Shown here: positions 34,419 to 58,721 of the stretch, piece by piece | How the letters are laid out: every line of letters starts with the position of its first letter | How positions within the stretch are numbered: the stretch's first letter is position 1 | From: Paracoccaceae bacterium | GTDB lineage: Bacteria; Pseudomonadota; Alphaproteobacteria; Rhodobacterales; Rhodobacteraceae | Direction: 5' to 3' | Length of the DNA: 64,000 bases | Assembly (NCBI GenBank): GCA_020425085.1 | Contig: JAGQRW010000007.1 | Location: 1 to 64,000, forward strand | The notes under the pieces: generated by a model | Told to the model about the DNA's origin: nothing | The model's database searches: none | What the model saw: the letters and a program-made list of their open reading frames with translations, nothing else | Program-made: the position numbers and the translations under genes

Positions 34419-34430
34419 TGCCGCAATGCA
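34419..34430 (-). promoter_or_regulatory. Near-match TGC-rich (PhaR-like) operator upstream of ecm
   Basis: On the minus strand the sequence reads TGCATTGCGGCA, 11 of 12 positions of the consensus TGCRNYGCASMA (A to G at position 9). It lies 84-95 bp upstream of the ecm start, a position close to the perfect site before mcd (71-82 bp). Weaker than the other sites. Confidence 0.4.
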
Positions 34431-34518
34431 GCGACAAAATGCCGGATCAGACGGCTGCGCGGCCCGGCCCTGGGACTTGAGGTGATTAGCGCGATAACGG
34501 AGCGTTGGTGAAATAAAT

Positions 34519-34548
34519 AGGCCGCAGTGTGGGGCTGCGGCCTTTTCT
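34519..34548. terminator. Terminator between ecm and CTERM genes (duplicated copy 1)
   Basis: AGGCCGCAG (34519-34527) pairs perfectly with CTGCGGCCT (34535-34543) over a 7-nt loop and runs into TTTTCT on the plus strand, with a run of A's reading as T's on the minus strand. It serves the CTERM gene ending at 34571 (minus). The same hairpin recurs at 35422-35453. Confidence 0.8.
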
Positions 34549-34658
34549 GGTAAGTGATGATTGCCGAGCTTCAGGATTTGCGGCGTTTCGCAGCCCCAAG
34601 GCCAAGCAATGCTGTCAGCAGCAGAACGCCACCGGCCGGCAGCGGAACCTGTGCCGTA
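34519..34658. repeat. Duplicated CTERM-plus-terminator module, copy 1
   Basis: About 140 bp covering the terminator and the last ~28 codons of the 34571-35128 gene. By eye it differs from copy 2 (35424-35559) by three or four substitutions and one 3-nt indel, including identity at most third codon positions; upstream of it the two genes are unrelated. This indicates recent duplication or gene conversion. Confidence 0.85.
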
Positions 34659-35128
34659 TCAAACTGGAAGGTCGAATAGCCATAGCCAGCCCCGGATGAA
34701 TTATCGTCAAAGAACAGGCGCGTGATCTGACCGTAGGCGCTGAGATCGATATGCTGATCCGGCGTGGTGAAAATCAACGAACCCAACAGCGCATTGGCGA
34801 TGCCGTAGATCGAGATCGTCACCATATCACCTGGATTTGATCCGTCGAGGTCGAAGGAAAGGTTGCTTACGACACTGGCAAAGGTGATGTCGGTATCTGC
34901 TTCACAGGAATATACATTGGGAGTCAACGAGCAGAATCCGTCAATCTCACCAGCTGCCCCCGCGCCTACCAAAATCTGGCCGCCGCTGGTATTGGTGATG
35001 GTGTGACCGTCGATCACGATCTGGCTTCCGTAGGTACCCGCGCCGAAACCGACGAAATCGATTGTTGCGGCGGATACGGCACTTCCTGCGACGGTCAGGG
35101 CAAGTGCTGCAACTAATTTCTTGTACAT
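34571..35128 (-). CDS. VPLPA-CTERM sorting domain protein
   Basis: A 185-residue exported protein: signal peptide (KKLVAALALTVAGSAVSA), a beta-rich middle with GFCSLTPNVYSCEADTD (two cysteines that may pair) and DNSSGAGYGYSTFQFD, then the sorting signal VPLPAGG, a Leu-rich helix and KRRKS. GGAGGA stands before the ATG. The last ~28 codons and the downstream terminator are almost identical to those of the next gene (35473-36048), while the rest differs. No adhesin domain recognised. Confidence 0.85.
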   Translation of the reverse strand: MYKKLVAALALTVAGSAVSAATIDFVGFGAGTYGSQIVIDGHTITNTSGGQILVGAGAAGEIDGFCSLTPNVYSCEADTDITFASVVSNLSFDLDGSNPGDMVTISIYGIANALLGSLIFTTPDQHIDLSAYGQITRLFFDDNSSGAGYGYSTFQFDTAQVPLPAGGVLLLTALLGLGAAKRRKS

Positions 35129-35421
35129 TTGAAAGGTCCTCCTTTGCTGTAATAGTTAATTTGGGACAAACACCATTTTACCACAAATTCGTGATTGGAG
35201 CAGAGAATTAATTGTTCGTTACCTTGAACTATTACAAAGTGTTAAGGTTGAAATTCGCCGCAAAGTTATGATTTGCACCAAATTTTTTACCAGTTGACGG
35301 CTACAGTTTTCGCACATGCGCCCGCCGATTCGCAGCAATTTGCCGTTTCCGTTGGGCGAGTCGCTTGGTTGAAGTGGAAACAATGTAATCAGAGCGATGT
35401 TTCGGAAATTGAAGAAAAAGA

Positions 35422-35453
35422 AAAGGCCGCAGTGTGGGGCTGCGGCCTTTTCT
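35422..35453. terminator. Terminator of second tandem CTERM gene (duplicated copy 2)
   Basis: AAAGGCCGCAG (35422-35432) and CTGCGGCCTTT (35440-35450) form a perfect 11-bp stem with a 7-nt loop, and the flanking A and T runs make it bidirectional. The 293 bp between 35129 and this hairpin is AT-rich, contains no gene, and must hold the promoter of the CTERM gene starting at 35128. Confidence 0.8.
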
Positions 35454-35559
35454 AGTAAATGATTGCCGAGCTTCAGGATTTGCGGCGTTTCGCAGCCCCA
35501 AGGCCAAGCAATGCTGTCAGCAGCAGAATGCCACCGGCCGGCAGCGGAACCTGTGCTGT
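35424..35559. repeat. Duplicated CTERM-plus-terminator module, copy 2
   Basis: Partner of the module at 34519-34658; covers the terminator and the 3' end of the 35473-36048 gene. Same orientation, about 905 bp apart, so recombination between the copies would delete the intervening surface-protein gene. Confidence 0.85.
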
Positions 35560-36048
35560 TTCATACGAGAAGTTATCGGCGTAAAGGTTGTTGTTGCCGT
35601 CAAGCCCTGTACCACCAAACAGCACATAGGAAATGTTGGCGGCGGAAACCGTCAGGGTCTTGAAGCCTATATAGGTATCAAGTATCGAGACGGAGTCAAA
35701 CGCCAACGGGTTGTCCGCCGCATCGAAGGCGAATAGATACAGATCATCCGCATCACCGTTATTGTCACCAATATCAACCGACACCATCGAGACCCCGGCA
35801 ACCGAGAAATCGGCCCGGTACGGGTTCAGGTTGTCAAACGGGACGGTCTGGATGAAATTGCCGGTGCCAAAGTAGTTTCCGCCATTCGCAACCATTATGT
35901 CATCACCACCCGCAGAAAGGGAAAATCCGCCGATTTCCAGGCCGGTGATCACGTCAAGTTCGGAAAAGCTCTCGAAATCCTGGGTGACGGCGGATGCTAT
36001 GCTGCCTGCGGCGCAGAAAAGCGCGGCGGCAATCGCTGTCTTGATCAT
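35473..36048 (-). CDS. VPLPA-CTERM sorting domain protein
   Basis: A 191-residue exported protein. Signal peptide from Met at 36048 (IKTAIAAALFCAAGSIASA) with GGAGGGG just before the ATG. The middle is a jelly-roll-like beta domain (DFESFSELDVITGLEIGGFS, SMVSVDIGDNNGDADDLYLF, DSVSILDTYIGFKTLTVSAA) of the kind seen in many PEP-CTERM proteins. C-terminus VPLPAGG, hydrophobic helix, KRRKS. A 36102 start is possible but would put 18 charged residues before the signal peptide. Confidence 0.87.
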   Translation of the reverse strand: MIKTAIAAALFCAAGSIASAVTQDFESFSELDVITGLEIGGFSLSAGGDDIMVANGGNYFGTGNFIQTVPFDNLNPYRADFSVAGVSMVSVDIGDNNGDADDLYLFAFDAADNPLAFDSVSILDTYIGFKTLTVSAANISYVLFGGTGLDGNNNLYADNFSYETAQVPLPAGGILLLTALLGLGAAKRRKS

Positions 36049-36364
36049 GTTCCCCTCCACTATTGATCCAGGCGAAAATCGCCTCTTGTCAGAATAGCAC
36101 ATTGCAGACCGGTTTTCAAATTCATCAACGAATAGTTATTGTATAAAATCAGATACTTGCATACTTTTTAGGTAACTACTGTCCCTACGTCGCCCTGATT
36201 ACGCCTGATTCCAGTCATGTTCTCGCCGGGCCTGGGGCGATTCGTTGCACCGGTTCTGTTTCCTTTTCAGAATTAGATGTTTCCACAACGAAAGCAGTCG
36301 CCGCCGACTGCGGAAGGCTCGCGAATTCTGTTTACCGGCTCGGGCATTGTTGTAACCTCGGTGC
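36049..36364. other. Divergent intergenic region (316 bp)
   Basis: Lies between the CTERM gene (minus) and the PlsB-like acyltransferase gene (plus). AT-rich near 36110-36180, presumably promoter DNA. An inverted repeat GCAGTCGCCGCCGACTGC lies at 36293-36310. No gene seen. Confidence 0.4.
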
Positions 36365-37768
36365 ATGTTTGAAACGGTCGAGTTCCCTCTCTGGTTTGTG
36401 TGGATTGCCGGTCTTCTGGCATTTGCCGGGCTGATGGACCGGATCCTGATGCCTTCGGTGCGCTGGTATCTCAGGCGGCGGCTGAACCGGGCGATCGAGC
36501 GGTTGAACGATCATTTGCAGCTGCGCATCCAGCCGTTCAAGCTGACCCGGCGCCGGGTAATGATCGACCGGTTGCTGCACGACCCCAAGGTGATGGAGGC
36601 GTTGACCGCTCATGCTGAAACCGAAGGTATGCCGCGCGAGGTGGTTGCGGAACGTGCGGCAGTCTATGCGCGTGAGATCGTACCGTCGTTTTCGGCATTC
36701 GCCTATTTCGGCTTTGCCATCCGTCTGTCGCGGTTTCTGTCCGAGGCATTGTATCGTGTGCGGCTGGGTTTCGTTGATGAAAAGGCGCTGGCCGCGGTCG
36801 ATCCTGATGCGACGGTGGTGTTTGTGATGAACCACCGCAGCAACATGGATTATGTGCTGGTCACCTATCTGGCGGCGCAGCATTCGGCGCTGTCCTATGC
36901 GGTGGGGGAATGGGCGCGGGTCTGGCCGTTGCAACAGTTGATCCGCTCACTTGGTGCCTATTTCATTCGCCGCAAATCGCGCGACATCCTTTATCGCCGG
37001 ATTTTGGCGCGCTATGTCCAGATGGCGACCGAAGGCGGCGTCACCCAGGCGATTTTTCCCGAAGGCGGGCTAAGTCTGGATGGGCGGCCGCGTCAGGCAA
37101 GGTTGGGCTTGCTCAGCTATATTCTGGACGGGTTTGACCCCAAGGGATTGCGCGACGTGGTGTTTGTGCCGGTCGGTCTGAACTATGACCGGGTGCTGGA
37201 AGATCGGGTGCTGACCAGGGTTGACCCGGATGGCGAGCGGCATTTTGAATTCAGGGTGCGGGTATTTCTGGGCTTTGTCTGGCGGCAACTATGGCTGAGG
37301 CTTACCCGGCGGTTTTATCGCCACGGCTATGCCTGTGTCAGTTTTGGGCGCCCGGTTTCGCTGAAACAATTTATCGCGGCAAATGATCAGTCGGCCGATG
37401 GCGGGTTTGCCGAAGGTCTTGGCGCCAGCTTGATGCAGCAGGTGGAACTGGTGATACCGGTCCTGCCGGTGCCGCTGGTGGCGACGGCGCTGCTGGATGA
37501 GGGGGCACCCCTGTCCATGCTGAAACTGAAAGCCAGATGCCACCATCTGTTGCAGGGGTTTCATGCGAAAGGTGCTTATGTGCATTTGCCGCACGAGGAT
37601 GAGGATTATGCTGTCGAGGTCGGATTGCGCATCCTGACCTCCAGGCACATGGTGACCGAGTCCGGAGGAGTTTATGCTGTCAATGCGGATGATCGTGCGC
37701 TGGTGCAATACTACGCCAACTCCATTGCCCATTTGCGCGGCGAAGAGAACAGCGATAACGCAACTTAA
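36365..37768 (+). CDS. Glycerol-3-phosphate / lysophosphatidate acyltransferase-like protein (PlsB/PlsC fold)
   Basis: A 467-residue acyltransferase with an N-terminal membrane segment (LWFVWIAGLLAFAGLMDRIL). The catalytic HX4D box is NHRSNMD (about residues 156-162), followed by YFIRRKSRDILYRRI, the substrate motif FPEGGLSLDG and VFVPVGLNYDRV. It is longer than PlsC and shorter than PlsB, in the class of PlsB-like acyltransferases common in marine alphaproteobacteria. It acylates a glycerol-phosphate backbone for membrane lipids. No clear ribosome site before the ATG; the start is uncertain by some residues. Confidence 0.85.
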   Translation: MFETVEFPLWFVWIAGLLAFAGLMDRILMPSVRWYLRRRLNRAIERLNDHLQLRIQPFKLTRRRVMIDRLLHDPKVMEALTAHAETEGMPREVVAERAAVYAREIVPSFSAFAYFGFAIRLSRFLSEALYRVRLGFVDEKALAAVDPDATVVFVMNHRSNMDYVLVTYLAAQHSALSYAVGEWARVWPLQQLIRSLGAYFIRRKSRDILYRRILARYVQMATEGGVTQAIFPEGGLSLDGRPRQARLGLLSYILDGFDPKGLRDVVFVPVGLNYDRVLEDRVLTRVDPDGERHFEFRVRVFLGFVWRQLWLRLTRRFYRHGYACVSFGRPVSLKQFIAANDQSADGGFAEGLGASLMQQVELVIPVLPVPLVATALLDEGAPLSMLKLKARCHHLLQGFHAKGAYVHLPHEDEDYAVEVGLRILTSRHMVTESGGVYAVNADDRALVQYYANSIAHLRGEENSDNAT

Positions 37769-37883
37769 TTGCTGGAAATACCTGTTAGACATGCTGATTC
37801 TTACGTCATGCCGGGCATTTTTTATGCTATATTGCTATTGCCCTTTGCGGCGATAAATGACAAACACCCCTTGACGATGATTC

Positions 37884-37907
37884 TGCAACGCAGCATGCTG
37901 CGTTGCG
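37884..37907. promoter_or_regulatory. Palindromic TGC-rich (PhaR-like) operator upstream of ccr
   Basis: A perfect 22-bp palindrome at 37885-37906: GCAACGCAGCA followed directly by its reverse complement TGCTGCGTTGC. The top strand from 37884 reads TGCAACGCAGCA, a full match to TGCRNYGCASMA, and the bottom strand gives 11 of 12. It also contains CTGC-N3-GCAG. It ends 21 bp before the ccr ATG. Confidence 0.7.
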
Positions 37908-37927
37908 GCAAAGAGATGGAGAATGCC

Positions 37928-39226
37928 ATGGCCCCCTTGGACGAAATGACCGCAATCACCCCCTATGAGGCTCTGGAAAAAGACCTGTATGAAGTCGGTG
38001 AAATCCCGCCTTTGGGCTATGTGCCAAAGCAGATGTACGCTTGGGCGATCCGGCGCGACCGGCATGGCGAACCCGACAAGAGCTTTCAGGTTGAGGTGGT
38101 GGATACCCCCGCCATCGACAGCCACGAAGTACTGATTTTCGTGATGGCGGCAGGCGTCAACTATAACGGCGTCTGGGCCGGGCTTGGCATTCCGATCAGT
38201 CCGTTTGATGTACATAAGGCGGATTATCACATCGCAGGTTCCGATGCCTCGGGCATCATCTGGGCGGTCGGCGACAAGGTGAAACGCTGGAAGGTTGGCG
38301 ACGAGGTTGTGGTGCATTGCAACCAGGACGACGGCGACGATGAGGAATGCAACGGGGGTGACCCGATGTTTTCCGACAGTCAGCGGATCTGGGGCTATGA
38401 GACACCGGACGGATCATTCGCCCAGTTCACTCGCGTTCAGGCGCAGCAACTGATGCGCCGCCCGCGCCACCTGACCTGGGAGGAAAGCGCCTGCTTTACC
38501 CTGACGCTGGCCACCGCCTATCGCATGCTGTTTGGCCATCGCCCGCATACCCTGAAACCGGGGCAGAACGTGCTGGTATGGGGTGCCTCGGGTGGTCTTG
38601 GCTCATTCGCCATTCAGTTGATCAACACCGCAGGGGCCAACGCGATCGGCGTGATCAGCGACGAAAGCAAACGTGATTTCGTCATGAGCCTGGGTGCAAA
38701 GGGCGTGATCAACCGCAAGGATTTCAACTGTTGGGGCCAGATGCCAACAGTGAACACGCCGGAATACAAGACGTGGTTTGGCGAAACACGAAAGTTCGGC
38801 AAGGCGATCTGGGACATCACCGGCAAGGGCAACAATGTCGACATGGTGTTTGAACATCCGGGCGAGGCGACCTTTCCGGTTTCGGTTTTCGTGGTCAAGC
38901 GCGGCGGTATGGTGGTGATCTGTGCCGGTACCACCGGCTATAACCTTACCATGGATGCGCGTTACCTGTGGATGCACCAGAAACGGGTGCAGGGCAGCCA
39001 CTTTGCCAACCTGAAACAGGCGAGTTCCGCCAACCAGCTGATGTTGGAACGCCGGCTTGATCCCTGCATGTCCGAGGTTTTTCCGTGGGAACAGATCCCC
39101 GACGCGCATGTGAAGATGCGCAAGAATGAGCACAAGCCGGGGAACATGGCGGTTCTGGTCAGTGCGCCGGTGACTGGCCTGGTAACCTTTGAAGACACGC
39201 TTGAGGCGAGTAGAGAGCTTCGCTAA
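37928..39226 (+). CDS. ccr: Crotonyl-CoA carboxylase/reductase
   Basis: A 432-residue enzyme reductively carboxylating crotonyl-CoA with NADPH and CO2 to ethylmalonyl-CoA, the key step of the ethylmalonyl-CoA pathway. Recognised from GVNYNGVWAGLGIPISPFD, the Ccr-specific CNQDDGDDEECNGGDPMFS insertion, the NADPH loop WGASGGLGSFAIQL and RRLDPCMSEVFPW. I chose ATG 37928 with GGAG 6 bp before it; longer frames are unsupported and would run through the palindromic operator. Monocistronic. Partners Ecm, Mcd and Mch are all in the window. Confidence 0.97.
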   Translation: MAPLDEMTAITPYEALEKDLYEVGEIPPLGYVPKQMYAWAIRRDRHGEPDKSFQVEVVDTPAIDSHEVLIFVMAAGVNYNGVWAGLGIPISPFDVHKADYHIAGSDASGIIWAVGDKVKRWKVGDEVVVHCNQDDGDDEECNGGDPMFSDSQRIWGYETPDGSFAQFTRVQAQQLMRRPRHLTWEESACFTLTLATAYRMLFGHRPHTLKPGQNVLVWGASGGLGSFAIQLINTAGANAIGVISDESKRDFVMSLGAKGVINRKDFNCWGQMPTVNTPEYKTWFGETRKFGKAIWDITGKGNNVDMVFEHPGEATFPVSVFVVKRGGMVVICAGTTGYNLTMDARYLWMHQKRVQGSHFANLKQASSANQLMLERRLDPCMSEVFPWEQIPDAHVKMRKNEHKPGNMAVLVSAPVTGLVTFEDTLEASRELR

Positions 39227-39365
39227 GCACCAAAAGCAAGGCATTTCCGCCTGAAAATCTGGCGGAAATTGCCATCCATTCTGCAACCTTTTGCCAACAC
39301 TACTGGCGTTATTACGCAATATCAATAGTTTAAAAAAATTACCCTCCCCATTTTCGGGGAATTAT

Positions 39366-39404: not shown

Positions 39405-39444
39405 TGTGTTAATGTTTTGTTAACCAATCGGAACGAGGTTTGAT

Positions 39445-39657
39445 ATGTCGCAGGAATGGATGATTGATGTCCTTACGGATCTGAAGAAATTCGCGCAGGC
39501 CAATGGCCTCATGGGGCTGGCGGAGCAGTTGGACGATTCAATCCTTGTCGCTGCGGCGGAATTGAAGCTGAACGAACCTGAACCGGTTCGGGGCCGCGGG
39601 CATGCAAACCAAAATAGTGGCGTTCATCGAACGCTTGCAGCAGGTGACAACATTTGA
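39445..39657 (+). CDS. Small conserved protein preceding luxR
   Basis: A 70-residue protein; residues 1-45 (EWMIDVLTDLKKFAQANGLM then GLAEQLDD) form a helical, well-behaved sequence resembling short proteins I recall upstream of luxR genes in roseobacters, while the tail after about residue 45 looks unconstrained. GAGG lies 6 bp before the ATG. It overlaps the luxR gene by 56 nt in another frame, so its translation would pass through the luxR start. Function unknown; coupling or post-transcriptional control of luxR is possible. Confidence 0.65.
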   Translation: MSQEWMIDVLTDLKKFAQANGLMGLAEQLDDSILVAAAELKLNEPEPVRGRGHANQNSGVHRTLAAGDNI

Positions 39658-40315
39658 CGGCATCCAGCGCCTGATCGAGCAGTTGCGCGATCTTTATCAG
39701 GTGGAACATCTGATATATCATTCAGTCAATTCGGCGGGCGAGCCTTATGCGGCACTGACTTATAGTCTGGACTGGGTCGATCACTATCTGGAACAGGATT
39801 ACGGGCGCATCGACCCGGTGGTTCTGGGTTGTTACCAGCGGTTTCATCCGGTCGACTGGAAACGTCTGGACTGGTCGAGCAAACGTGTTCGCAATTTCCT
39901 GCTGGAGGCGTCGGATGCCGGGATTGGCAATCAGGGCTTTTCCATACCGATCCGCGGTCCGAACGGCCAGTTTGCGCTGTTTACCGTCAATCACCGCTGT
40001 TCAGACGAAGAATGGCTCAGGTTCACCGATGCACATGTGCGCGATCTGTTGCTGATTGCGCATTATGTGAACCAGAAGGCGCTGGAAGTGGAACGCGGCA
40101 CCGACCGTTTGCCGGATCAATCGCTGTCACCGCGCGAGCTTGACGCGCTGACCATGCTGGGTATGGGCAAAAGCCGCGGTCACGCCGCCGAGATCCTTTC
40201 GATTTCCGAACATACGCTAAGGGTTTATATTGAAAGCGCACGTTTCAAGCTGGGCGCGGCCAATACCACCCACGCAGTGGCGCTGGCGATGGCAAGGGGC
40301 AAGATCATCGTCTGA
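39602..40315 (+). CDS. luxR: LuxR family autoinducer-binding transcriptional regulator
   Basis: A 237-residue quorum-sensing regulator. Autoinducer-binding domain (about 1-165) with the conserved set Trp58, Tyr62, Asp71, Pro72 and Trp86. C-terminal LuxR helix-turn-helix from LSPRELDALTMLGMGKSRGH to IESARFKLGAANTTHAVALA. No strong ribosome site; the start lies inside the upstream small gene. The synthase gene follows after 98 bp. The locus probably senses an acyl-homoserine lactone made by its neighbour. Confidence 0.95.
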   Translation: MQTKIVAFIERLQQVTTFDGIQRLIEQLRDLYQVEHLIYHSVNSAGEPYAALTYSLDWVDHYLEQDYGRIDPVVLGCYQRFHPVDWKRLDWSSKRVRNFLLEASDAGIGNQGFSIPIRGPNGQFALFTVNHRCSDEEWLRFTDAHVRDLLLIAHYVNQKALEVERGTDRLPDQSLSPRELDALTMLGMGKSRGHAAEILSISEHTLRVYIESARFKLGAANTTHAVALAMARGKIIV

Positions 40316-40413
40316 GAAACCCCATTTGCCGGATTTTTTTGTTACCGAACGTTCAAAAACCCTTAACCGGCCTGTCGCTATCCCCTTGCTATTGCAGCGA
40401 TGGGGTAAAATTC

Positions 40414-41052
40414 ATGATCCGTTATCTTTATGCCGACCAGCTTGATGAAACACCGAAACTTCGTGACAGCATGTTCCGTGACCGCGCCTGGCAATTCCGC
40501 CAGCGTTTGAACTGGCAGGTCAATGTGGATGCGCGGGGTTTTGAACGTGATCAGTATGACGACGAAAATCCGCTTTATGTAATTCACCAACTGGCTGATG
40601 GCAGTCATGGCGGCTCGATGCGGTTTCTGCCGACCACCGGGCCGACCATGGTGAATGATCACTTTCTCGACCTGACCAATGGGGTTGCGTTCAAAAGCCC
40701 GCTGATCTGGGAATGTACCCGGTTTTGCCAGTCGCCGCGCAGCGATGCCGCTGCCAGAGTGTCGGCGCGTCTGATGCTGGCAGCGGCCGAACTTGGACGA
40801 CAGTTCAGTCTGGATCATGCGGTCGGGGTGTTTGATGCGCGGATGGTTCGGGTTTATCGCGCCATGGGCTGGGCACCCGAACTTCTGGGGCAACAAGGTG
40901 AAGGTGCGGATGCAATCGGTGTCGGCCTGTGGGAGTTTTCCCGCGCGCCGTTCCATCGACTAAATGCCCGCGCCGGGGTCAGGGATGGCACGGCCGGGCG
41001 CTGGCTTCGGCAGGCATTTCAGTCGGCGGGGCAGGTAGAACTGATCGCCTGA
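40414..41052 (+). CDS. luxI: Acyl-homoserine-lactone synthase
   Basis: A 212-residue LuxI-family enzyme making an acyl-homoserine lactone from S-adenosylmethionine and an acyl carrier. The conserved set is visible: MFRDRAWQFRQRLNW (Arg, Phe, Trp), FERDQYDDENPLYV (Asp), GSMRFLPTTGPTM (Arg) and IWECTRFC (Glu, Arg). The ATG at 40414 was chosen since the protein then starts like the family (MIRYLYADQL). The 98-bp gap after luxR has the 8-bp palindrome GAACGTTC at 40347, a possible part of an autoinducer-responsive site. Acyl chain unknown. Confidence 0.95.
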   Translation: MIRYLYADQLDETPKLRDSMFRDRAWQFRQRLNWQVNVDARGFERDQYDDENPLYVIHQLADGSHGGSMRFLPTTGPTMVNDHFLDLTNGVAFKSPLIWECTRFCQSPRSDAAARVSARLMLAAAELGRQFSLDHAVGVFDARMVRVYRAMGWAPELLGQQGEGADAIGVGLWEFSRAPFHRLNARAGVRDGTAGRWLRQAFQSAGQVELIA

Positions 41053-43675: not shown

Positions 43676-43882
43676 GTCGACTTCCAGGTCTGAACCGGAC
43701 TTTTGACATTGCCTGCATATGCTGTTGGCCGGAACGTTTGTGGCGTGCGGATCGGCAGGAAATCCACAGCTTTGAAAATGGCTGAAGTTGTTGGAATACG
43801 ACCGATTCACGCGGCCCTGTCGCATTGGGGCAAGACGCAATGGCGATTCCGGGCGGATGCTGCGCCCAAAAGGGTCTGAAAG

Positions 43883-43899
43883 ATGTTGCAGCGCAGAAT
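43883..43899 (+). promoter_or_regulatory. TGC-rich (PhaR-like) site overlapping the MFS gene start
   Basis: ATGTTGCAGCGCAGAAT differs at one position from the site ATGTTGCAGCGCAGCAT upstream of the 3-hydroxybutyryl-CoA dehydrogenase gene, and bases 43887-43898 match TGCRNYGCASMA fully. It begins exactly at the ATG of the MFS gene, so either it is an operator overlapping the start or a coincidence in coding sequence. Confidence 0.35.
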
Positions 43900-45115
43900 T
43901 CCGGAATGGCTTCGGCATGCGCCGGTTCCGAGTGTACGCAAGTTTGCGCTGCTATCCGGGCTGGAAGCAACCATGCGTGGCATCCTGATCTCGGTCTTTC
44001 CGCTGTCGATGTATGCCGCATTCGGCGATGCGTCGGTGGTGTCGGCGCTGTATTTTCTGGTTGGGGTGATATCGCTTTTGTCCGGGTTGGCGGTGCCGTC
44101 GCTCAGCCGCTGGATCGCACGTCGTTGGATGTATTCACTGGGCGTCAGCCTGTTTCTGATTGGCAACATGCTGGCGATACATGGCGGCAAGCTGGCGATG
44201 TTTTCGGCCCTTGTGCTGAATACCGTGGCGGTGGTGACGATCTTTGTCTGTATCAACGCCTATGTGCTTGACCATATCGGTAAACGCCAGCTTGGTCGGG
44301 CTGAATCCCTTAGGTTGTTCTATTCCGCGCTTGGCTGGACAGTTGGCCCGGCCGGTGGTGTCTGGTTGATGCAGATTTGGGCGCCGGCACCGTTTATCGT
44401 GGCAGCGGTTGCAGCCACAGCCATGCTTGGCGTGTTCTGGTGGATGCGTCTGGGCAACGGGCGGGTGATCATGCGCGCCAAGGCTCCACCGCCCAATCCA
44501 CTGGCTTACCTTTCGCGGTTTATAAGGCAGCCAAGGCTGGTGGCGGGCTGGTTGTTTGCGGTCATTCGGTCCTGTGGCTGGTGGGTCTATGTGGTCTATG
44601 TGCCGATTTTCGCGGTTGAAAGCGGGCTTGGCCAGCAGGCGGGGGGGCTGACGCTTTCACTGACCAACGGCATGTTGTTCGTGGCGCCCCTGATGCTGAA
44701 TTTCGTGCAGCGAACCTCGATCCGGTTTGCGGTCCGGTCGGGTTTTCTGGCGGCGGGCGTGTTCTTTGCGCTGGCGGGGGTGTTGGCAGGGATGCCGCTG
44801 GCCGCGATCGGTTCGCTGATGCTGGGATCGGTGTTTCTGATCCTTCTTGATGTTTGCGGTGGTCTGCCGTTTCTGATGGCGGTGCGCGCCTCGGAACGTA
44901 CCGAGATGTCGGCGGTCTATGCCAGCTACCGAGATGTTTCCGGAATCGTGACGCCGGGGGTCGCCTGGCTGGTGCTGCTGGTGGCGCCGTTGTCCGCGGT
45001 TTTTGTGGCGGGTGGCGGCGGGCTGATTCTGGCCTGGCTTTTGGCAGCAAGGGTGCATCCGCGTTTGGGCATGTCTCGGGGTGGGGTGGTGTTGCGGCAG
45101 GAGGGTGCCGTCTGA
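43883..45115 (+). CDS. MFS transporter
   Basis: A 410-residue membrane carrier with twelve predicted helices in two halves. The N-terminal half begins VRKFALLSGLEATMRGILIS, with a charged loop SRWIARRWMYSLG between helices 2 and 3 in the usual MFS position; a cytoplasmic loop near residue 195-215 separates the halves. I do not recognise a substrate-specific subfamily. The ATG at 43883 has AGGG 9 bp upstream and carries a TGC-rich motif. It ends 3 bp before the convergent gamma-glutamyltransferase gene. Confidence 0.88.
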   Translation: MLQRRIPEWLRHAPVPSVRKFALLSGLEATMRGILISVFPLSMYAAFGDASVVSALYFLVGVISLLSGLAVPSLSRWIARRWMYSLGVSLFLIGNMLAIHGGKLAMFSALVLNTVAVVTIFVCINAYVLDHIGKRQLGRAESLRLFYSALGWTVGPAGGVWLMQIWAPAPFIVAAVAATAMLGVFWWMRLGNGRVIMRAKAPPPNPLAYLSRFIRQPRLVAGWLFAVIRSCGWWVYVVYVPIFAVESGLGQQAGGLTLSLTNGMLFVAPLMLNFVQRTSIRFAVRSGFLAAGVFFALAGVLAGMPLAAIGSLMLGSVFLILLDVCGGLPFLMAVRASERTEMSAVYASYRDVSGIVTPGVAWLVLLVAPLSAVFVAGGGGLILAWLLAARVHPRLGMSRGGVVLRQEGAV

Positions 45116-47791: not shown

Positions 47792-49468
47792 TCAGTTCCG
47801 GCCGGTTTCCAGCAACCGTCTTGCAATCACCTGTGCCTGAATTTCGGCGGCACCTTCAAAGATGTTGAGGATGCGGGCATCGCACAACACCCGACTGATC
47901 GGGTATTCCAGCGCGAAACCGTTGCCACCGTGGATTTGCAGCCCGTTATCGGCTGCCGCCCAGGCAACACGGGCGCCCAGCAATTTGGCCATCCCTGCTT
48001 CAAGATCACAGCGCCGCCCTTCATCTTTTTCGCGGGCTGCGTGATAGGTCAGTTGCCGCGTCACCATGATTTCCACCGCCATCATCGCCAGTTTGGAACT
48101 GACGCGGGGGAAATGGATGATGCTTTGGCCGAACTGCTTGCGCTCGGTTGCGTATTTCAAGGCGATTTCCATCGCGGATTGCGCCACGCCGATTGCCCTT
48201 GCGGCGGTCTGGATGCGGGCTGATTCAAAGGTCTGCATCAGTTGTTTGAAACCTTGGCCCTCAACCCCGCCCAACAGGTTTTCCGCCTTGACCCTGAAGC
48301 CGTCAAAACCCAGTTCGTATTCCTTCATGCCGCGATAGCCCAAAACCTCGATCTCGCCGCCGCTCATGCCTTTAGTGGGGAACGGGTCGGCATCGTCGCC
48401 AGGGGTCTTTTCGGCCAGAAACATCGACAGACCGGCGTAATTGTCGGTGGCGGGATCGGTGCGCGCCAACAGGGTCATCACATGTGTTCGCGCGGCATGG
48501 GTGATCCAGGTTTTGTTGCCGGTCACGACATAGTCATCGCCGTCGCGTACCGCGCGGGTGCGCAGGCTGCCGAGATCCGAGCCGGTATTGGGTTCGGTAA
48601 AAACCGCTGTCGGCAACTTTTCCGCAGATGAGATCAGCGGCAGCCATTTTTGTTTCTGTTCCTCGGTACCACCGCCAAGGATCAGCTCGGCGGCGATTTC
48701 CGAACGTGTGCCAAGCGAACCAACGCCAATATAGCCACGGCTGAGTTCTTCGGACACGACGCACATTGCCGATTTCGGAAAGCCGAATCCGCCGTATTCC
48801 TCGGGTATGGTCAGACCGAAAACGCCAAGTTCGGCCATCTCGTGAATCAATTCCATCGGGATGAATTCATCCTTGAGGTGCCATTCATGAGCAAAGGGAA
48901 CCACCTTGTCGTCGGCAAAGCGGCGGAACTGATCGCGGATCATTTCCAGTTCATCGTCCAGCCCGGTAGTGCCGTAGGATGCAACGCCCGCGCGTTCCTG
49001 CATCAGGGTGCAAAGGCGGGCGCGGGCGGGTTCGGTATTGCCCTTTTGCATCAGGGTCTTGACCGCCGGGTTCAGCATCACCTGCTGTGCTTCGTGATCC
49101 AGCCCCAGGTCCTGAAGACGGGCGATTTCGCCCTGGCTCATCGGGATGCCACCGACCAGTTGTGACAGGTATTCTCCAAAGGCGATTTGCAGGATCAGAT
49201 GCTCTATCTCGCCAAATTTTCCGTCAGCCTCCAGCGCCATTGCCCAGCGGTTCATCTGTCTTAGCGCCTCGATATAGGTGGCGGTCCATGACAGGCTGTG
49301 GGCGGCGAATTGTTCGGCATCGACCGCTTTGGCCGAGACGCGACCATCCTTTTCGACCCGCGCGCGCATAGAGGATCGCGCCGCATCCAGCAGTGCATCG
49401 AGAGCAGGCATTGCCGCCGTGCCAAGGGCCAGCAGATCGTCAAGAAGAATGGTGTCGGGTTTGGTCAT
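47792..49468 (-). CDS. mcd: Acyl-CoA dehydrogenase, probable (2S)-methylsuccinyl-CoA dehydrogenase
   Basis: A 558-residue flavoprotein. The first ~160 residues are a helical extension (EQFAAHSLSWTATYIEALRQ, ILQIAFGEYLSQLVGGIPMS) absent from ordinary acyl-CoA dehydrogenases (~380 residues); the remaining ~400 residues are a standard dehydrogenase core (FTEPNTGSDLGSLRTRA, QIHGGNGFALEYPISRVLCD). Such an extension and length are known from methylsuccinyl-CoA dehydrogenase of the ethylmalonyl-CoA pathway, which fits Ccr, Ecm and Mch in this window. It makes mesaconyl-C1-CoA and passes electrons to Etf (59772-61459). ATG 49468 behind AGGA. Confidence 0.87.
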   Translation of the reverse strand: MTKPDTILLDDLLALGTAAMPALDALLDAARSSMRARVEKDGRVSAKAVDAEQFAAHSLSWTATYIEALRQMNRWAMALEADGKFGEIEHLILQIAFGEYLSQLVGGIPMSQGEIARLQDLGLDHEAQQVMLNPAVKTLMQKGNTEPARARLCTLMQERAGVASYGTTGLDDELEMIRDQFRRFADDKVVPFAHEWHLKDEFIPMELIHEMAELGVFGLTIPEEYGGFGFPKSAMCVVSEELSRGYIGVGSLGTRSEIAAELILGGGTEEQKQKWLPLISSAEKLPTAVFTEPNTGSDLGSLRTRAVRDGDDYVVTGNKTWITHAARTHVMTLLARTDPATDNYAGLSMFLAEKTPGDDADPFPTKGMSGGEIEVLGYRGMKEYELGFDGFRVKAENLLGGVEGQGFKQLMQTFESARIQTAARAIGVAQSAMEIALKYATERKQFGQSIIHFPRVSSKLAMMAVEIMVTRQLTYHAAREKDEGRRCDLEAGMAKLLGARVAWAAADNGLQIHGGNGFALEYPISRVLCDARILNIFEGAAEIQAQVIARRLLETGRN

Positions 49469-49538
49469 GTCGTGGTCCTGTCTTTGCTGGTCAGCGGGCG
49501 GAATCGGCGCTAAGTATTCGTCACCGCCTCCTAGCGAA

Positions 49539-49550
49539 TGCTGCGATGCA
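49539..49550 (-). promoter_or_regulatory. TGC-rich (PhaR-like) operator upstream of mcd
   Basis: The minus strand reads TGCATCGCAGCA, a full match to TGCRNYGCASMA; the plus strand offers CTGC-GAT-GCAG (49541-49551). It lies 71-82 bp upstream of the mcd ATG, in the divergent gap with the TSUP gene. Confidence 0.6.
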
Positions 49551-49627
49551 GCGCAACATAAACACCAAAAAGAACCGGTGCGCGAACGATTATGACGCAT
49601 CTGATGGCATGAAAGAGGATAAGTCAG

Positions 49628-50461: not shown

Positions 50462-50474
50462 GTGGCAACAATTC

Positions 50475-52073
50475 TTAACCCAGTGCTACGGCCTTTACGT
50501 CATCGTCGATATGGCTGAGATATTGCGCAAAGTTGTCTGCGAACATCTTGACCAGCCTTTTGGCGTCACGGTCGTAGGTTTCCGGGTTGTCCCAGGTTCG
50601 GCGCGGATCCAGCAGCACATTGGCAACCCCGTCCACATCCACCGGCACATCAAAGCCGAAATTCGGATCAACACGGAATTCAACATCGTTTAGGGTGCCA
50701 TTCAGTGCCGCTGTCAACAACGCACGGGTGGCCTTGATCGGCATCCTGGAGCCGGTGCCATAGGCACCGCCGGTCCAGCCGGTATTGACCAGCCAGCAGG
50801 TGGCGCCGGAATTGGCGATCTTTTGCCTGAGCAGGTTGCCATAAACTTCAGGGCGGCGCGGCATGAAGGGGGCGCCGAAACAGGTGGAAAAGGTCGGCTC
50901 GGGTTCGGTTACGCCGCGTTCCGTTCCTGCAACCTTCGAGGTAAAGCCGGACAGAAAATGATACATTGCCTGTGCCGGTGTCAGGCGGGCAATCGGCGGC
51001 AAAACACCAAAGGCATCACAGGTCAGCATAATAATGTTTTTCGGCTGCCCGCCCATCGAAGTTTTGGAGGCGTTCGAAATATAGTGCAGCGGATAGGCAC
51101 AGCGCATGTTGGCGGTCAGGCTGTCGTCTTCGAAATCCACCTGGCGGGTTTCCGGATCGAACACCATATTTTCGACGACGGATGCGAATTTTTCCGTGGT
51201 GGCGTAGATTTCCGGTTCCGCTTCGCGTGACAGGCTGATGGTCTTGGCGTAACAGCCGCCTTCGAAGTTGAAGGTGCCTTCGTCCGACCAGCCATGTTCG
51301 TCGTCACCGATAAGGGTGCGCGAAGGATCGGCCGAAAGGGTGGTCTTGCCGGTGCCGGAAAGGCCAAAGAAGATCGCTGCGTCTTCGGGATCATTCAGCG
51401 CATGGTTGGCGGAACAATGCATCGGCATGATGCCGTTTTCTGGCAACAGATAGTTCAACAGCGTGAATACCGCCTTCTTGTTTTCGCCGCCATATTCGGT
51501 GCCGCCGATCAGGATCAGCTTTTTGTCGAAGTTCAGCGCGATCACCGTGCTGCTTCGGCAACCGTGGCGTTTCGGATCAGCGGCGAAGCTTGGGCAGTTG
51601 ATGATGGTGAAGTCCGGCAGGTATTCATCAAGTTCGTCGCGTTCGGGACGGCGCAGCATGTGACGGATGAACAGGCTGTGCCAGGCGAGTTCGGTAACCA
51701 TCCGCACGTCAAGGCGGTGTCTGGGATCGGCGCCGCCGTAAAGATCCTGCACGAAATATTCGCGCCCCTTCATGTGTTCCCGCATGTCGTCGTAAAGGCG
51801 ATCGAACGCTGCCGGTTCCATCGGCGGGTTGTTTTCCCACCAGATCTTGTTTTCAACCGAAGGAGTCCTGACCACGAATTTGTCCAGTGGCGAACGCCCG
51901 GTATGGGTGCCGGTATTTACCAAGAGCGCGCCACCACGACCAAGGCTGCCTTCGCCGCGCAACAGCGCCTTTTCAACCAGGGTTGGTTCGATATCGTTAT
52001 AGTGCACCGCGCCAAGGCCTTTGATCCCGTTGGTCGCTAGGGTCTGGGACGGGTTTACCCTTCCTTGGGTCAT
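50475..52073 (-). CDS. pckA: Phosphoenolpyruvate carboxykinase (ATP)
   Basis: A 532-residue enzyme forming PEP from oxaloacetate with ATP, the entry to gluconeogenesis. Signatures: [20 protein letters not shown] at the start, the kinase loop [30 protein letters not shown] and [14 protein letters not shown]. Normal length. It is divergent from chvI, the conserved arrangement in Rhizobiales and Rhodobacterales, and ChvI is known in relatives to affect pckA expression. Confidence 0.98.
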
Positions 52074-55268: not shown

Positions 55269-56192
55269 ATGACTGAACCGACGACAAAATCCCTTACCGG
55301 GCCGTTGAAGGCGGTGCTGGTGACCGGCCCCTCGGGGGCGGGTCGATCGACCGCGATCCACGCGCTGGAGGATCTGGGATTCGAGGCTATTGACAACTTG
55401 CCTCTCAGCCTGGTGCCTCGGCTGTTGTCCGGCCCGGAAATGACCCGGCATCTGGCGCTTGGCATGGATGTGCGCAACCGCGATTTTTCCGCTCAAGGCC
55501 TGATCGACACGGTAGATGCGATCAATCTGAAGACCGCACTGGAATGCTCGCTGATCTATCTGGACTGCGATCCCGAGATTCTGCTTCGGCGCTATTCCGA
55601 GACCCGCCGCCGTCACCCGCTTGCCCCCGATGATACCCCGCAGCAAGGCATCAGCCGCGAAAACAACCTGCTGACGGCGCTGAAGGACCGGGCCGATGTG
55701 CTGATAGATACCACGGAAATGTCCCCGCATGACCTTCGGGCGGAACTGGCTGCCTGGTTCGGGGCCGAGGCCGGGCAGGGGATGGCGGTATCGGTGCAAA
55801 GTTTTTCCTACAAGCGCGGCATTCCACGCGGGGTCGATATGGTACTGGATTGTCGGTTCCTGAGGAATCCGCATTGGCAAGAGGAACTGCGTGTAATGGA
55901 CGGGCGGAATGCAAAAGTCGCCGAATACATTTCCGCCGACCCCCGCTTTGCCGATTTCATCGCCCGAAGCAGTGAACTGGTTGAATCATTGCTGCCCGCC
56001 TATCGGGATGAGGGCAAGTCCTATTTCACTTTGGCGCTTGGGTGTACCGGCGGGCAACACCGCTCGGTTTTCGTGGCGGAAACTATGGCAAATACCCTTG
56101 CGAAGAAGGGCTGGCAGGTGTCTAGTCGCCACCGTGAACTGGAAAGGCGTGCAGAGGCAGCGCAACTTTCGCAACAGGATAAAGACACTTGA
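55269..56192 (+). CDS. rapZ: RapZ-family nucleotide-binding protein
   Basis: A 307-residue protein with an N-terminal P-loop (GPSGAGRS, 20-27) and the conserved C-terminal domain (SFSYKRGIPRGVDMVLDCRF; FTLALGCTGGQHRSVF). In E. coli RapZ is an RNA-binding adaptor controlling GlmS; here it sits in the hprK-PTS operon as in most proteobacteria. Its stop overlaps the TTG start of the EIIA gene. Confidence 0.95.
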   Translation: MTEPTTKSLTGPLKAVLVTGPSGAGRSTAIHALEDLGFEAIDNLPLSLVPRLLSGPEMTRHLALGMDVRNRDFSAQGLIDTVDAINLKTALECSLIYLDCDPEILLRRYSETRRRHPLAPDDTPQQGISRENNLLTALKDRADVLIDTTEMSPHDLRAELAAWFGAEAGQGMAVSVQSFSYKRGIPRGVDMVLDCRFLRNPHWQEELRVMDGRNAKVAEYISADPRFADFIARSSELVESLLPAYRDEGKSYFTLALGCTGGQHRSVFVAETMANTLAKKGWQVSSRHRELERRAEAAQLSQQDKDT

Positions 56193-56578
56193 TCGGGATT
56201 GTGATTGTCGCCCATGGTGGACTGGCCGCAGAATACTTGCGGGCGGTTGAACATGTGGTGGGCAAGATGCAGGGAATCCGCGCCGTAGCCATCGAGGCCG
56301 ATCATGACCGCAATGCCAAACAGGCGGAAATCGCTGCCGCTGCCGATGCAGTGGATCAGGGTGACGGTGTGGTGGTGGTGACGGATATGTTCGGCGGATC
56401 ACCTTCCAATCTTTCGTTGCCCGCGTGCCGTGCGGCAGATCGCAAGATCATCTATGGCGCCAATCTGCCGATGCTGATCAAATTGGCAAAAAGCCGCAAC
56501 AAATCGGTCGCCGATGCGGTCGCATGCGCGCTTGAGGCCGGGCGGAAATACATAGATTATTGTGACGGCAGCTACTGA
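56189..56578 (+). CDS. PTS EIIA component, mannose family (regulatory PTS)
   Basis: A 129-residue EIIA-Man domain. The phosphorylated His lies in VIVAHGGLAAEYL; VVVVTDMFGGSPSNLSL is the second conserved block. It starts with TTG, overlapping the rapZ stop. No sugar permease (EIIB/EIIC) is nearby, so this belongs to a regulatory PTS with HPr and HprK; EI is outside the window. Confidence 0.94.
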   Translation: MIGIVIVAHGGLAAEYLRAVEHVVGKMQGIRAVAIEADHDRNAKQAEIAAAADAVDQGDGVVVVTDMFGGSPSNLSLPACRAADRKIIYGANLPMLIKLAKSRNKSVADAVACALEAGRKYIDYCDGSY

Positions 56579-56583
56579 GCGGA

Positions 56584-56865
56584 ATGGATTTCATGACCAC
56601 CGAGATTATCCTGCCGATTATCAATGAAAAGGGGTTGCACGCCCGCGCTTCGGCGAAGTTCGTTGAAATCGTTGAAAAATTCGATGCGCGCGCGCAAGTA
56701 AGCCGCGACGGGATGAGCGTTTCCGGGGATTCGATCATGGGTCTTCTGATGCTTGCTGCCTCCAAAGGCACCAGCGTGGCGGTGAAAACCTCAGGCACCG
56801 AGGCAGAGGCACTTGCAGAGGCCCTTGAAGACTTGGTAAAGAATCGCTTCGGTGAAGAGGCCTGA
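56584..56865 (+). CDS. ptsH: Phosphocarrier protein HPr
   Basis: A 93-residue HPr. Phosphoacceptor His in KGLHARASAKF (His19 with this start) and the HprK-target Ser in SGDSIMGLLML. An alternative start at 56593 would give the more usual N-terminus MTTEIILPI. Five bp after the EIIA gene. Last gene of the chvI-chvG-hprK-rapZ-EIIA-HPr run. Confidence 0.95.
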   Translation: MDFMTTEIILPIINEKGLHARASAKFVEIVEKFDARAQVSRDGMSVSGDSIMGLLMLAASKGTSVAVKTSGTEAEALAEALEDLVKNRFGEEA

Positions 56866-56906
56866 ATTGCCGCGCCTTCGTCACCGCTGACACAAGGAAC
56901 CTTCGG

Positions 56907-57755
56907 TTGGCTGATGAACACGCTCCTCTGGACGACCAGCCCTATGATGGCCGGAACCTGTCCTATGCCGGGACTTTCACCAATCCGTACAAGGCTTTTG
57001 CCATCCGGGTGATCGAATGGGTGACCGGCAAGCTTTACCTGCTGAAACTGGTACGCAAGTTCGAGGCGGCGGGGCATGTGGAAAACACCGATTTCTGGCG
57101 GCGCGCCATTGATCTTTTGGGGATTGATCTACAAACCCCGGACAGCGAGATCGCCAATATCCCCAAGACTGGGCCGGTGGTGATTGTCGCCAACCACCCA
57201 CATGGGCTGGTCGATGGCATGATCCTGGCGGAACTGGTGGGACGGGTGCGGCAGGATTTCAAGATCCTGACGCGCTCGCTGCTGACCAACGTACCGCTGG
57301 TGCAATATCACATGCTTCCGGTCGCCTTTCCGCATGAACCGGATGCGATCCGGATGAATCTGGCAATGCGCAAGCTGGCAATGGAGCATCTGAAGGATGG
57401 CGGCGTGATCATCTTGTTTCCCGCCGGGCAGGTGGCGACATCGCCGGGCTGGTTCGATACCGCGGTCGAGGCAGAATGGCTGCCATTCACCGCCAAGATG
57501 ATCCTGAAAAGCGACGCAAAGGTGGTGCCGGTCTATTTTCCCGGCCAGAACAGTCGCTGGTTCCAACTGGCCAACAAGGTGTCGATCACCATCCGTCAGG
57601 GCCTGTTATTGCATGAAATCGCATTTGCCCGGAACAAACCGCAGAAACCAGTGATCGGTAAGGCGATCGAACGCGATGAGATTGCCGCCTGGGACAAGGA
57701 CCCACGCGGTTTCATGGCGCATCTTCGCAAGGTAACGCTGGCGCTACGGCACTGA
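56907..57755 (+). CDS. Lysophospholipid acyltransferase family protein
   Basis: A 282-residue PlsC-fold protein. The catalytic box is NHPHGLVDG (HX4D), with LFPAGQVATSPGWFD as the phosphate-binding FPEG-like motif. Resembles ornithine-lipid or hemolysin-type acyltransferases of alphaproteobacteria; substrate uncertain. TTG start at 56907 (TTG GCT GAT GAA); no in-frame ATG precedes the conserved region. Convergent with the 3-hydroxybutyryl-CoA dehydrogenase gene. Confidence 0.87.
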   Translation: MADEHAPLDDQPYDGRNLSYAGTFTNPYKAFAIRVIEWVTGKLYLLKLVRKFEAAGHVENTDFWRRAIDLLGIDLQTPDSEIANIPKTGPVVIVANHPHGLVDGMILAELVGRVRQDFKILTRSLLTNVPLVQYHMLPVAFPHEPDAIRMNLAMRKLAMEHLKDGGVIILFPAGQVATSPGWFDTAVEAEWLPFTAKMILKSDAKVVPVYFPGQNSRWFQLANKVSITIRQGLLLHEIAFARNKPQKPVIGKAIERDEIAAWDKDPRGFMAHLRKVTLALRH

Positions 57756-57779
57756 GGTTGCGGTTCAGACTGGCTGAAC

Positions 57780-58655
57780 CTATCGGGTCGGTACCGGTTT
57801 TTCACCACGGTAATCATAAAACCCGCGACCGGATTTGCGTCCGTACCAGCCTGCCTCCACATATTTGGTCAATAGCGGGCAGGGGCGGTATTTGGTATCG
57901 GCCAGCCCTTCGTGCAACACGTTCATGATGGCAAGGCAGGTATCAAGCCCGATGAAATCTGCCAGCTCAAGCGGCCCCATCGGATGGTGCGCGCCAAGCT
58001 TCATCGAAGTATCAATGCCTTCGACCGAGCCGACGCCCTCATAAAGGGTATAGATTGCCTCGTTGATCATCGGCATCAGGATGCGGTTGACGATGAAGGC
58101 GGGGAAATCTTCGGCGGCCGTTGAAACCTTGCCAAGCCGTTTTACCACATCTTTCAATGCGTTAAAGGTAGGCTCATCGGTGGCAATACCACGGATCAGT
58201 TCCACCAGTTCCATCAACGGCACCGGGTTCATGAAATGCACACCCATGAATTTTTCCGGCCGGTCGGTACGCGAGGCAAGTCGGGTGATCGAGATTGACG
58301 AGGTGTTCGATGTCAAAATGGTGTCGGGGCGAAGATGCGGCAGCAGGTCTTCAAAGATCACCTGCTTGATGGTTTCGCGTTCTGTTGCCGCCTCGATGAT
58401 CAGGTCAAGTTTGCCAAGATCGGCTAGCGTGGTGGTGGTTTTTATTCGCTTCAGCGCCGCATCCATGTCGTCCTGGGTTATGCGGTCACGAGCGACCTGA
58501 CGCGTCATGTTGGCGGTAATGGTTTCGATCGCTGCGATCAGTGCATCGGAGGAAATGTCGTTCAACATCACATCGAAACCGGCCAGCGCAAAGACATGCG
58601 CGATGCCGTTGCCCATTTGGCCTGCGCCAACGATGCCCACATTGGAAATATTCAT
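57780..58655 (-). CDS. 3-hydroxybutyryl-CoA dehydrogenase
   Basis: A 291-residue NAD(P)-dependent enzyme interconverting acetoacetyl-CoA and 3-hydroxybutyryl-CoA. Rossmann motif GIVGAGQMGNGIAHVFALAG, active-site GVHFMNPVPLMELVELI with the catalytic His, and GPLELADFIGLDT. ATG at 58655 behind AGGAGA. Two tandem copies of a TGC-rich motif lie 29-66 bp upstream, matching the sites before ccr and mcd, so it is probably regulated with the ethylmalonyl-CoA pathway and PHB turnover. Confidence 0.95.
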   Translation of the reverse strand: MNISNVGIVGAGQMGNGIAHVFALAGFDVMLNDISSDALIAAIETITANMTRQVARDRITQDDMDAALKRIKTTTTLADLGKLDLIIEAATERETIKQVIFEDLLPHLRPDTILTSNTSSISITRLASRTDRPEKFMGVHFMNPVPLMELVELIRGIATDEPTFNALKDVVKRLGKVSTAAEDFPAFIVNRILMPMINEAIYTLYEGVGSVEGIDTSMKLGAHHPMGPLELADFIGLDTCLAIMNVLHEGLADTKYRPCPLLTKYVEAGWYGRKSGRGFYDYRGEKPVPTR

Positions 58656-58683
58656 CCGCTCTCCTTTGGTCGTTCTGTCGATT

Positions 58684-58721
58684 ATGTTGCAGCGCAGCAT
58701 AGTCATGTTGCATTGCAGCAT
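58684..58721. promoter_or_regulatory. Tandem TGC-rich (PhaR-like) operators upstream of 3-hydroxybutyryl-CoA dehydrogenase gene
   Basis: ATGTTGCAGCGCAGCAT (58684-58700) and ATGTTGCATTGCAGCAT (58705-58721) are identical at 15 of 17 positions and spaced 21 bp, two helical turns. Both contain full matches to TGCRNYGCASMA (58688-58699 and 58709-58720). They start 29 bp upstream of the gene's ATG (minus strand). The most persuasive copy of this motif in the window. Confidence 0.7.

Follow-up and report, generated by a model that had tools for sequence, protein, structure and literature searches.

Candidate PhaR operators at ethylmalonyl-CoA pathway genes of a Paracoccaceae bacterium and their conservation in Alphaproteobacteria

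The locus and its candidate operators

We analyzed a 64-kb stretch of the genome of a Paracoccaceae bacterium (assembly GCA_020425085.1, contig JAGQRW010000007.1, positions 1 to 64,000; this whole stretch is called the window, and the genome G000), which carries the ethylmalonyl-CoA (EMC) pathway genes ccr, ecm, and mcd together with hbd. Candidate operators resembling the binding sites of PhaR, a regulator that responds to polyhydroxybutyrate (PHB), lie upstream of all four genes, with their centers at -25 to -91 and thus near the start codons. That the four genes share TGC-rich sites, as an earlier reading of the sequence alone had noted, is confirmed. The exact matches to the 12-mer TGCRNYGCASMA that it placed upstream of ccr (37884), mcd (49539-49550, minus strand), and hbd (58688 and 58709, plus strand) were all located, and so was the ecm site with one mismatch (34419-34430, minus strand). 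It had set the sites 21-95 bp before the start codons; measured from the likely starts (ccr 37928, ecm 34335, mcd 49468, and hbd 58655), they begin about 32 to 83 bp upstream. A second, mirrored ccr site (37899-37910, one mismatch to the 12-mer) is left out of that sequence-only reading.

Sites were scored in bits with a symmetric PhaR matrix drawn from 67 published sites of Sinorhizobium meliloti (PMC12542648), a member of another bacterial group; the matrix was not fitted to the window. The genes and candidate sites are listed below, with site centers given relative to the likely start codons.

37928..39226, plus strand: ccr, crotonyl-CoA carboxylase/reductase (NCBIfam TIGR01751, 618 bits; likely start ATG 37928)
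37878..37898, plus strand: ccr operator 1, candidate PhaR-type 21-mer (18.5 bits, E 0.05 per 64 kb; center about -40)
37893..37913, plus strand: ccr operator 2, candidate, mirrored relative to operator 1 (16.5 bits; center about -25)
32368..34335, minus strand: ecm, ethylmalonyl-CoA mutase (methylmalonyl-CoA mutase family; NCBIfam mutase domains)
34416..34436, minus strand: ecm operator, candidate (15.2 bits; center about -91; likely start 34335)
47792..49468, minus strand: mcd, methylsuccinyl-CoA dehydrogenase (acyl-CoA dehydrogenase family; family matches only)
49536..49561, minus strand: mcd operator, candidate, two overlapping weaker 21-mers (10.5 and 9.0 bits; centers about -78 and -83)
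57780..58655, minus strand: hbd, 3-hydroxybutyryl-CoA dehydrogenase (NCBIfam NF005715, 541.7 bits)
58682..58702, no strand assigned: hbd operator 1, candidate (21.4 bits, the best of the window; center about -37)
58703..58723, no strand assigned: hbd operator 2, candidate, 21 bp from operator 1 (20.6 bits, second best of the window; center about -58)
43881..43901, plus strand: possible operator at the start codon of a major facilitator superfamily (MFS) transporter open reading frame (ORF 43883-45115; MFS_1; 18.7 bits)

The ORF of ccr spans 37769-39226, and an in-frame ATG at 37916 is a possible alternative start. Its 12-mer occupies 37884-37895 on the plus strand, with an overlapping reverse reading at 37881, and the second copy of the site is also there in G149, a genome of the same genus (13.8 bits). 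None of the models names ecm, and the ortholog in Ruegeria TM1040 (78%) is annotated meaA; a single gene separates meaA from ccrA in Ruegeria, and the ecm and ccr starts lie about 3.6 kb apart in the window. The name mcd follows the sequence-only reading, because the models give the acyl-CoA dehydrogenase family only. Membership of the MFS transporter ORF in the putative regulon is uncertain.

Identity of the motif

The 12-mer is letter for letter the PhaR consensus published for Bradyrhizobium diazoefficiens, which was derived from DNase I footprints and promoter alignment (PMC6201568). The sequence-only reading had assigned it to PhaR of Paracoccus and Rhodobacter relatives, which is right apart from the species. 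A "TGC-rich" PhaR motif is described for Paracoccus/Rhodobacter (PMC10888616), and the S. meliloti PhaR palindrome is reported as WNWD2NYGCRNYGCRNH2WNW, with many of the promoters in Table 3 of that paper marked as bound by PhaR, efficiently or weakly (PMC12542648).

Exact matches to the 12-mer are found at ccr, hbd, and mcd, and the ecm site has one mismatch yet a complete YGCRNYGCR core. Across the AT-rich arms, the ccr, ecm, and hbd sites fit the S. meliloti 21-mer only with one mismatch; they reach 15-21 bits by the matrix, and mcd reaches 10.5. The window holds nine exact matches against 1.33 expected, a number attained in 0 of 100 shuffles, and five of these nine readings fall at promoters, those of ccr, mcd, and hbd. 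The remaining four lie within long reading frames (15002, 36007, and 38310) or at the 5' end of the MFS ORF (43887). Ranked by the matrix, the top seven places in the 64 kb are the two hbd sites (21.4 and 20.6 bits), 43881 (18.7), ccr (18.5), 51997 (17.4), the second ccr site (16.5), and ecm (15.2), the weaker mcd site falling outside them. The place at 51997 was rejected as a pckA operator: the pckA ATG is at 52073, and the match lies inside the coding sequence, for which reason it is taken as chance. In Bradyrhizobium, pckA is a suggested PhaR target (PMC6201568).

Conservation within the family

Among 80 named ccr loci of the family, 79 could be scored, one start lying too near the contig end, and 73 of the 80 were scored for ecm; a rank test was restricted to loci of at least 8 kb (74 for ccr and 69 for ecm). 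Upstream of ccr, the best place reaches at least 12 bits in 63 of 79 relatives and at least 15 bits in 43 of 79. This region makes up 1.8% of the locus sequence and nonetheless outranks all the rest of it in 54 of 74 loci, against about 1.3 expected and 20 of 74 for the best of 200 core-permuted matrices. The YGCRNYGCR core occurs upstream of ccr in 77 of 79 loci versus 24% of 4,069 control windows, and the extended core in 72 of 79 versus 6.2%. Within the ccr sites, the central three bases are variable and the flanking GC pairs constant, as a binding site would show, and in most relatives the center falls some 25-45 bp ahead of the start codon. No conserved -35 box was seen upstream of the ccr site, TTGAC occurring in the upstream stretch of only 3 of 63 anchorable promoters.

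At ecm, the upstream region reaches at least 12 bits in 39 of 73 relatives; it ranks first within its locus in 12 of 69 cases (binomial 3e-9) and in the top three in 52 of the 69, mostly with ccr ahead of it. In 52 ecm promoters, which were selected by the motif itself, the consensus runs straight into TTGACA (at least 70% per base). Orthologs of mcd and hbd are present in 39 and 41 of 42 relatives, respectively, and the best 30 of the 39 mcd loci and the best 30 of the 41 hbd loci were scored. Leaving out G003 and G349, two genomes without phaR that are treated below, 28 loci remain for each gene; G106, in which phaR was not detected, is among the 28 for mcd. A site of at least 12 bits precedes mcd in 14 of these 28. 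Before mcd we also observed a TTG[CT]GCTGC block, mostly followed 3-4 bases on by TGCRAA, in 25 of the 30 relatives (L126-L155), a rigidity beyond what a PhaR site by itself would require.

The sequence-only reading had pointed to orthologous promoters as the place to look for conservation, and there it is strong for ccr, with ecm next and mcd after it, and hbd is lineage-specific. An origin of the hbd promoter through insertion of DUF6473 between etfA and hbd was ruled out, as the same DUF6473 layout is present in many relatives that lack the site. As a positive control, phaR upstream stretches, some extending to the phaP promoter, were examined in the same way: 20 were taken, 19 were scored, and 16 of the 19 reach at least 12 bits. 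G411 was left out of that count; its phaC-phaP-phaR contig carries sites of 22.1, 14.3, and 13.6 bits.

Conservation across Alphaproteobacteria

To the level of the class, 88 of 289 alphaproteobacterial genomes have Ccr at E <=1e-180, and 87 besides the window's genome were scored, four of them from the window's own family; the count concerns sites near ccr. A site of at least 12 bits lies near ccr in 63 of 87 and one of at least 15 bits in 54 of 87, as compared with means of 0.8 and 0.12 in shuffled regions. Outside the window's family, 35 of 43 families have at least one genome with a ccr site.

Named plasmid-borne ccr loci (8 of 34 records examined) are divided. Sites are present in Paracoccus denitrificans (12.1 bits), Ruegeria TM1040 (15.7), and Methylobacterium aquaticum (14.4), and the ccr genes of Methylobacterium bullatum (7.8 bits), Methylocystis rosea, Rhizobium sp. 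007, Bradyrhizobium guangzhouense, and Burkholderia arboris lack them. The ecm gene of Ruegeria TM1040 has sites of 15.2 and 12.5 bits.

Relatives without phaR

In the family, phaR (PF07879) is present in 386 of the 395 genomes that are at least 95% complete, and in 241 of 246 when the threshold is 90%. None of the nine phaR-less genomes among the 395 yielded PhaC_N. Four of them (G134, G275, G317, and G407) also gave no Ccr match reaching 1e-100, as if both systems tend toward joint loss. Three further phaR-less genomes, G083, G123, and G248, have only Ccr homologs of 51-53% identity; being divergent, these were not counted as orthologs (best upstream places of 8.8, 6.1, and 14.7 bits).

G003 and G349, two genomes of one genus, have no detectable phaR or phaC and keep an 86% Ccr as well as ecm and mcd. 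The sequence of the ccr operator in both is TGCGCCACGGC, in which the second GC pair of the core is broken (5.9 bits), and no good site is left upstream of ecm (7.8 and 3.6 bits) or mcd (3.6 and 6.2 bits). An apparent internal stop in the G003 Ccr match proved to be the gene's own end. Six sister species, for which operators only were scored, are split at ccr: the site is intact in G697 (19.5 bits) and G702 (20.9) and broken in G698, G699, G700, and G701. At ecm, scored in four of the six, G697 is intact at 15.8 bits, and G698, G700, and G701 have 6.3, 6.1, and 7.1 bits.

PHB genes and neighboring genes

G000 itself encodes phaR (PF07879, 99.2 bits in a profile search, at G000:C12:110842), immediately downstream of the phasin gene phaP. 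PhaR-type sites of 22.1 and 11.0 bits lie in the phaP promoter, and one of 20.5 bits lies in the phaR promoter. Outside the window there are 66 exact 12-mer matches, of which 24 fall in 20 regions that were picked by eye and examined. Strong intergenic matches in these regions precede phaR, phaA, and a small gene that resembles DUF1127 by eye; two further matches above 15 bits are inside long reading frames. The phaA gene, a beta-ketothiolase judged by eye from its N terminus, has a 19.6-bit site 42 bp upstream (about G000:C18:414850; L119 882-902), and its product is the first enzyme of both the PHB and the EMC routes. The DUF1127-like gene (L112:944) is preceded at G000:C12:80486-80517 (L112 887-918) by sites of 20.1 and 22.5 bits, among the strongest seen in the genome, and is followed by a second similar small ORF. 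In a Methylorubrum phaR mutant, phaA, phaB, and phaC were up after methanol induction according to earlier work cited in PMC6520949, the transcriptome of which differed from that result.

Around the EMC genes of the window, ccr is directly followed by genes for a LuxR-type regulator and an autoinducer synthase (39602-41052), and a LuxR-family gene is likewise near ccr in Ruegeria TM1040 (L312). Two VPLPA-CTERM sorting-domain proteins are encoded between ecm and the acyltransferase-ccr pair (34571-36102).

PhaR as a candidate regulator of the EMC pathway

The identity, position, and conservation of these sites make it quite probable, in our judgment, that they are PhaR operators and that PHB-titrated PhaR directly controls entry into the EMC pathway. 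PHB abolishes DNA binding by PhaR in vitro in Bradyrhizobium, in agreement with Paracoccus (PMC6201568). By analogy with published PhaR biology, PhaR would bind and repress the promoters described here and be released from them by PHB. In the absence of PHB, free PhaR would occupy the promoters of ccr, ecm, and mcd, as well as the hbd promoter in this lineage, and would keep the pathway low. Under an excess of acetyl-CoA, acetoacetyl-CoA and 3-hydroxybutyryl-CoA would be converted to PHB, and the granules would titrate PhaR off its operators, derepressing the EMC pathway along with phasin. PHB would in this way be the cell's readout of C2 overflow. The ecm and mcd site centers touch or overlap the likely -35 region, as far as promoters can be placed from sequence, and together with a ccr site near the start codon this arrangement suits repression relieved by PHB.

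Of the PHB/EMC regulon that the sequence-only reading proposed, ccr and ecm have good support, both from conservation and from the decay of their operators in relatives without phaR; the support for mcd is weaker, and hbd holds only as a lineage-specific member. On a broader scale, and with less assurance, we lean toward PhaR control of ccr being an old, class-wide alphaproteobacterial feature, in which PHB granules would be the sensor that switches on the EMC pathway, its missing inducer, and in which the circuit would be dismantled when PHB synthesis is lost.

Several observations weigh against this interpretation. Looser counts weaken the excess in the window. When a single mismatch to the 12-mer is tolerated, the window has 43 matches against 30.1 expected (1 of 100 shuffles attains 43), and the 21-base IUPAC form, likewise with one mismatch at most, has 9 against 9.04 expected, four of the nine being the ecm and ccr sites and the two hbd sites. 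In a genome-wide scan, which the sequence-only reading had suggested, the count in 3.34 Mb is 75, near the scaled 1.33 per 64 kb (18 for a reversed-pattern control), so that the 12-mer alone is not enriched genome-wide. The evidence therefore lies in position, score, and conservation and not in number.

Conservation is also uneven. The signal at ecm is less sharp, one of 200 core-permuted matrices having attained 16 of 69 as top place, and the ecm of P. denitrificans has just 6.9 bits. The mcd block, with its nearly fixed center, may be partly a -35 element. Sites at hbd are present in just 3 of 28 relatives, and among two same-genus genomes in G411 only, which makes hbd a lineage-specific member. 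Eight families of the class have ccr without a site, and one of the core-permuted matrices, which average 1.8 of 87 at 12 bits, attained 28. Because G003 and G349 form a single lineage, the decay of operators in phaR-less genomes is one main event, and G349 has a different place of 13.0 bits at -66 of ccr, without the full core. In G106, phaR was not found, yet the ccr operator is intact at 17.5 bits and sites of 24.2 and 22.4 bits lie between phaC and the next ORF; this assembly, in 590 contigs and 92% complete, has phaC at the edge of a contig that holds no match to phaR. Lastly, a study of a phaR mutant of Methylorubrum (M. extorquens) reports broad changes, and ccr and crotonyl are absent from its main text (PMC6520949).

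Alternative explanations

PhaR might bind these sites and mainly activate, in which case free PhaR, without PHB, would turn the pathway on and PHB storage would turn it off. Placement cuts both ways, as the ecm site often abuts the likely -35 box, which would also fit an activator, whereas the ccr site center, about 25-45 bp before the start codon, is probably downstream of the promoter and fits a repressor. PHB is expected to form on acetate. Ccr goes up on this substrate (PMC10370305), contrary to activation by free PhaR. The record of PhaR in other species is divided as well: positive regulation is suggested for pckA and pdhA of B. diazoefficiens (PMC6201568), and the title of PMC12849132 has Ralstonia eutropha PhaR activating phaP3, but in S. 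meliloti the motif shows enrichment among the genes that PhaR represses and occurs at just seven that it activates (PMC12542648). We regard activation as unlikely.

Less likely still is that some other transcription factor recognizes the same TGC-N3-GCA palindrome and that the match to PhaR is coincidental. The sites in G106, intact though phaR was not found there, would be accommodated by such a factor, and known regulators of these pathways include CcrR in Methylobacterium and RamB/PccR. Yet the motif is identical to a footprint-based PhaR consensus, the same sites stand at phaP and phaR in G000, and the operators are broken where phaR and phaC are gone (G003 and G349). A factor of the ScfR type, to which RamB and PccR belong, would presumably use the half-site TTTGCAAA, which has 0 occurrences in the window and precedes ccr in just 1 of 79 relatives and ecm in 1 of 73. 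We find it scarcely credible that chance alone, in a moderately GC-rich genome, produced these matches. The genome-wide 12-mer count is near chance and the 21-mer IUPAC count of the window equals it, but the position and score of the ccr site are conserved in the family and the class, far above shuffled, permuted, and sliding-window controls. Chance is thus refuted for ccr and unlikely for ecm, and it is possible for the matches at 15002, 36007, 38310, and 51997, which lie in reading frames.

Relation to known systems

The mechanism that raises the EMC pathway "remains enigmatic" (PMC10370305), and a named candidate regulator whose gene is easy to delete and whose sites are mapped in dozens of genomes makes the matter directly testable, a ccr-mCherry reporter strain of Paracoccus having been published. 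Were PhaR control true, PHB would be recast from a passive store to a signal by which a large class of bacteria gates acetate assimilation, with storage and C2 assimilation coupled in one circuit. Such coupling would be relevant for engineering the production of PHB and dicarboxylic acids.

Other regulators have been connected with this pathway. CcrR of Methylobacterium extorquens is reportedly a TetR-family activator that regulates the EMC pathway gene ccr; in the genus of CcrR, the ccr of M. bullatum has no PhaR site and that of M. aquaticum has one. RamB of P. denitrificans, an ScfR protein, acts on the glyoxylate cycle, which serves acetyl-CoA assimilation alongside the EMC pathway, and the main text describing it mentions neither PhaR nor PHB (PMC10370305). 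The main text of a Rhodobacter sphaeroides network paper likewise has neither PhaR nor crotonyl. Among the literature listings, no title or abstract opening concerns PhaR control of the EMC pathway; most subscription journals lie outside these listings, and absence from print is not shown.

The closest parallels are the PhaR systems of two rhizobia. The B. diazoefficiens regulon has the same consensus, TGCRNYGCASMA, its targets being phasin and depolymerase genes, and the main text contains none of the terms crotonyl, ethylmalonyl, and methylmalonyl (PMC6201568). The targets of S. meliloti AniA/PhaR are reported to be exopolysaccharide, phasin, depolymerase, and central carbon genes, the main text containing neither crotonyl nor ethylmalonyl; its phaP promoters carry two sites each, an arrangement shared by phaP, hbd, and ccr in G000, and a PHB titration model is likewise proposed (PMC12542648). 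The regulator and its operator belong to a known kind, and the EMC genes appear to be new and widely conserved members of the PhaR regulon.

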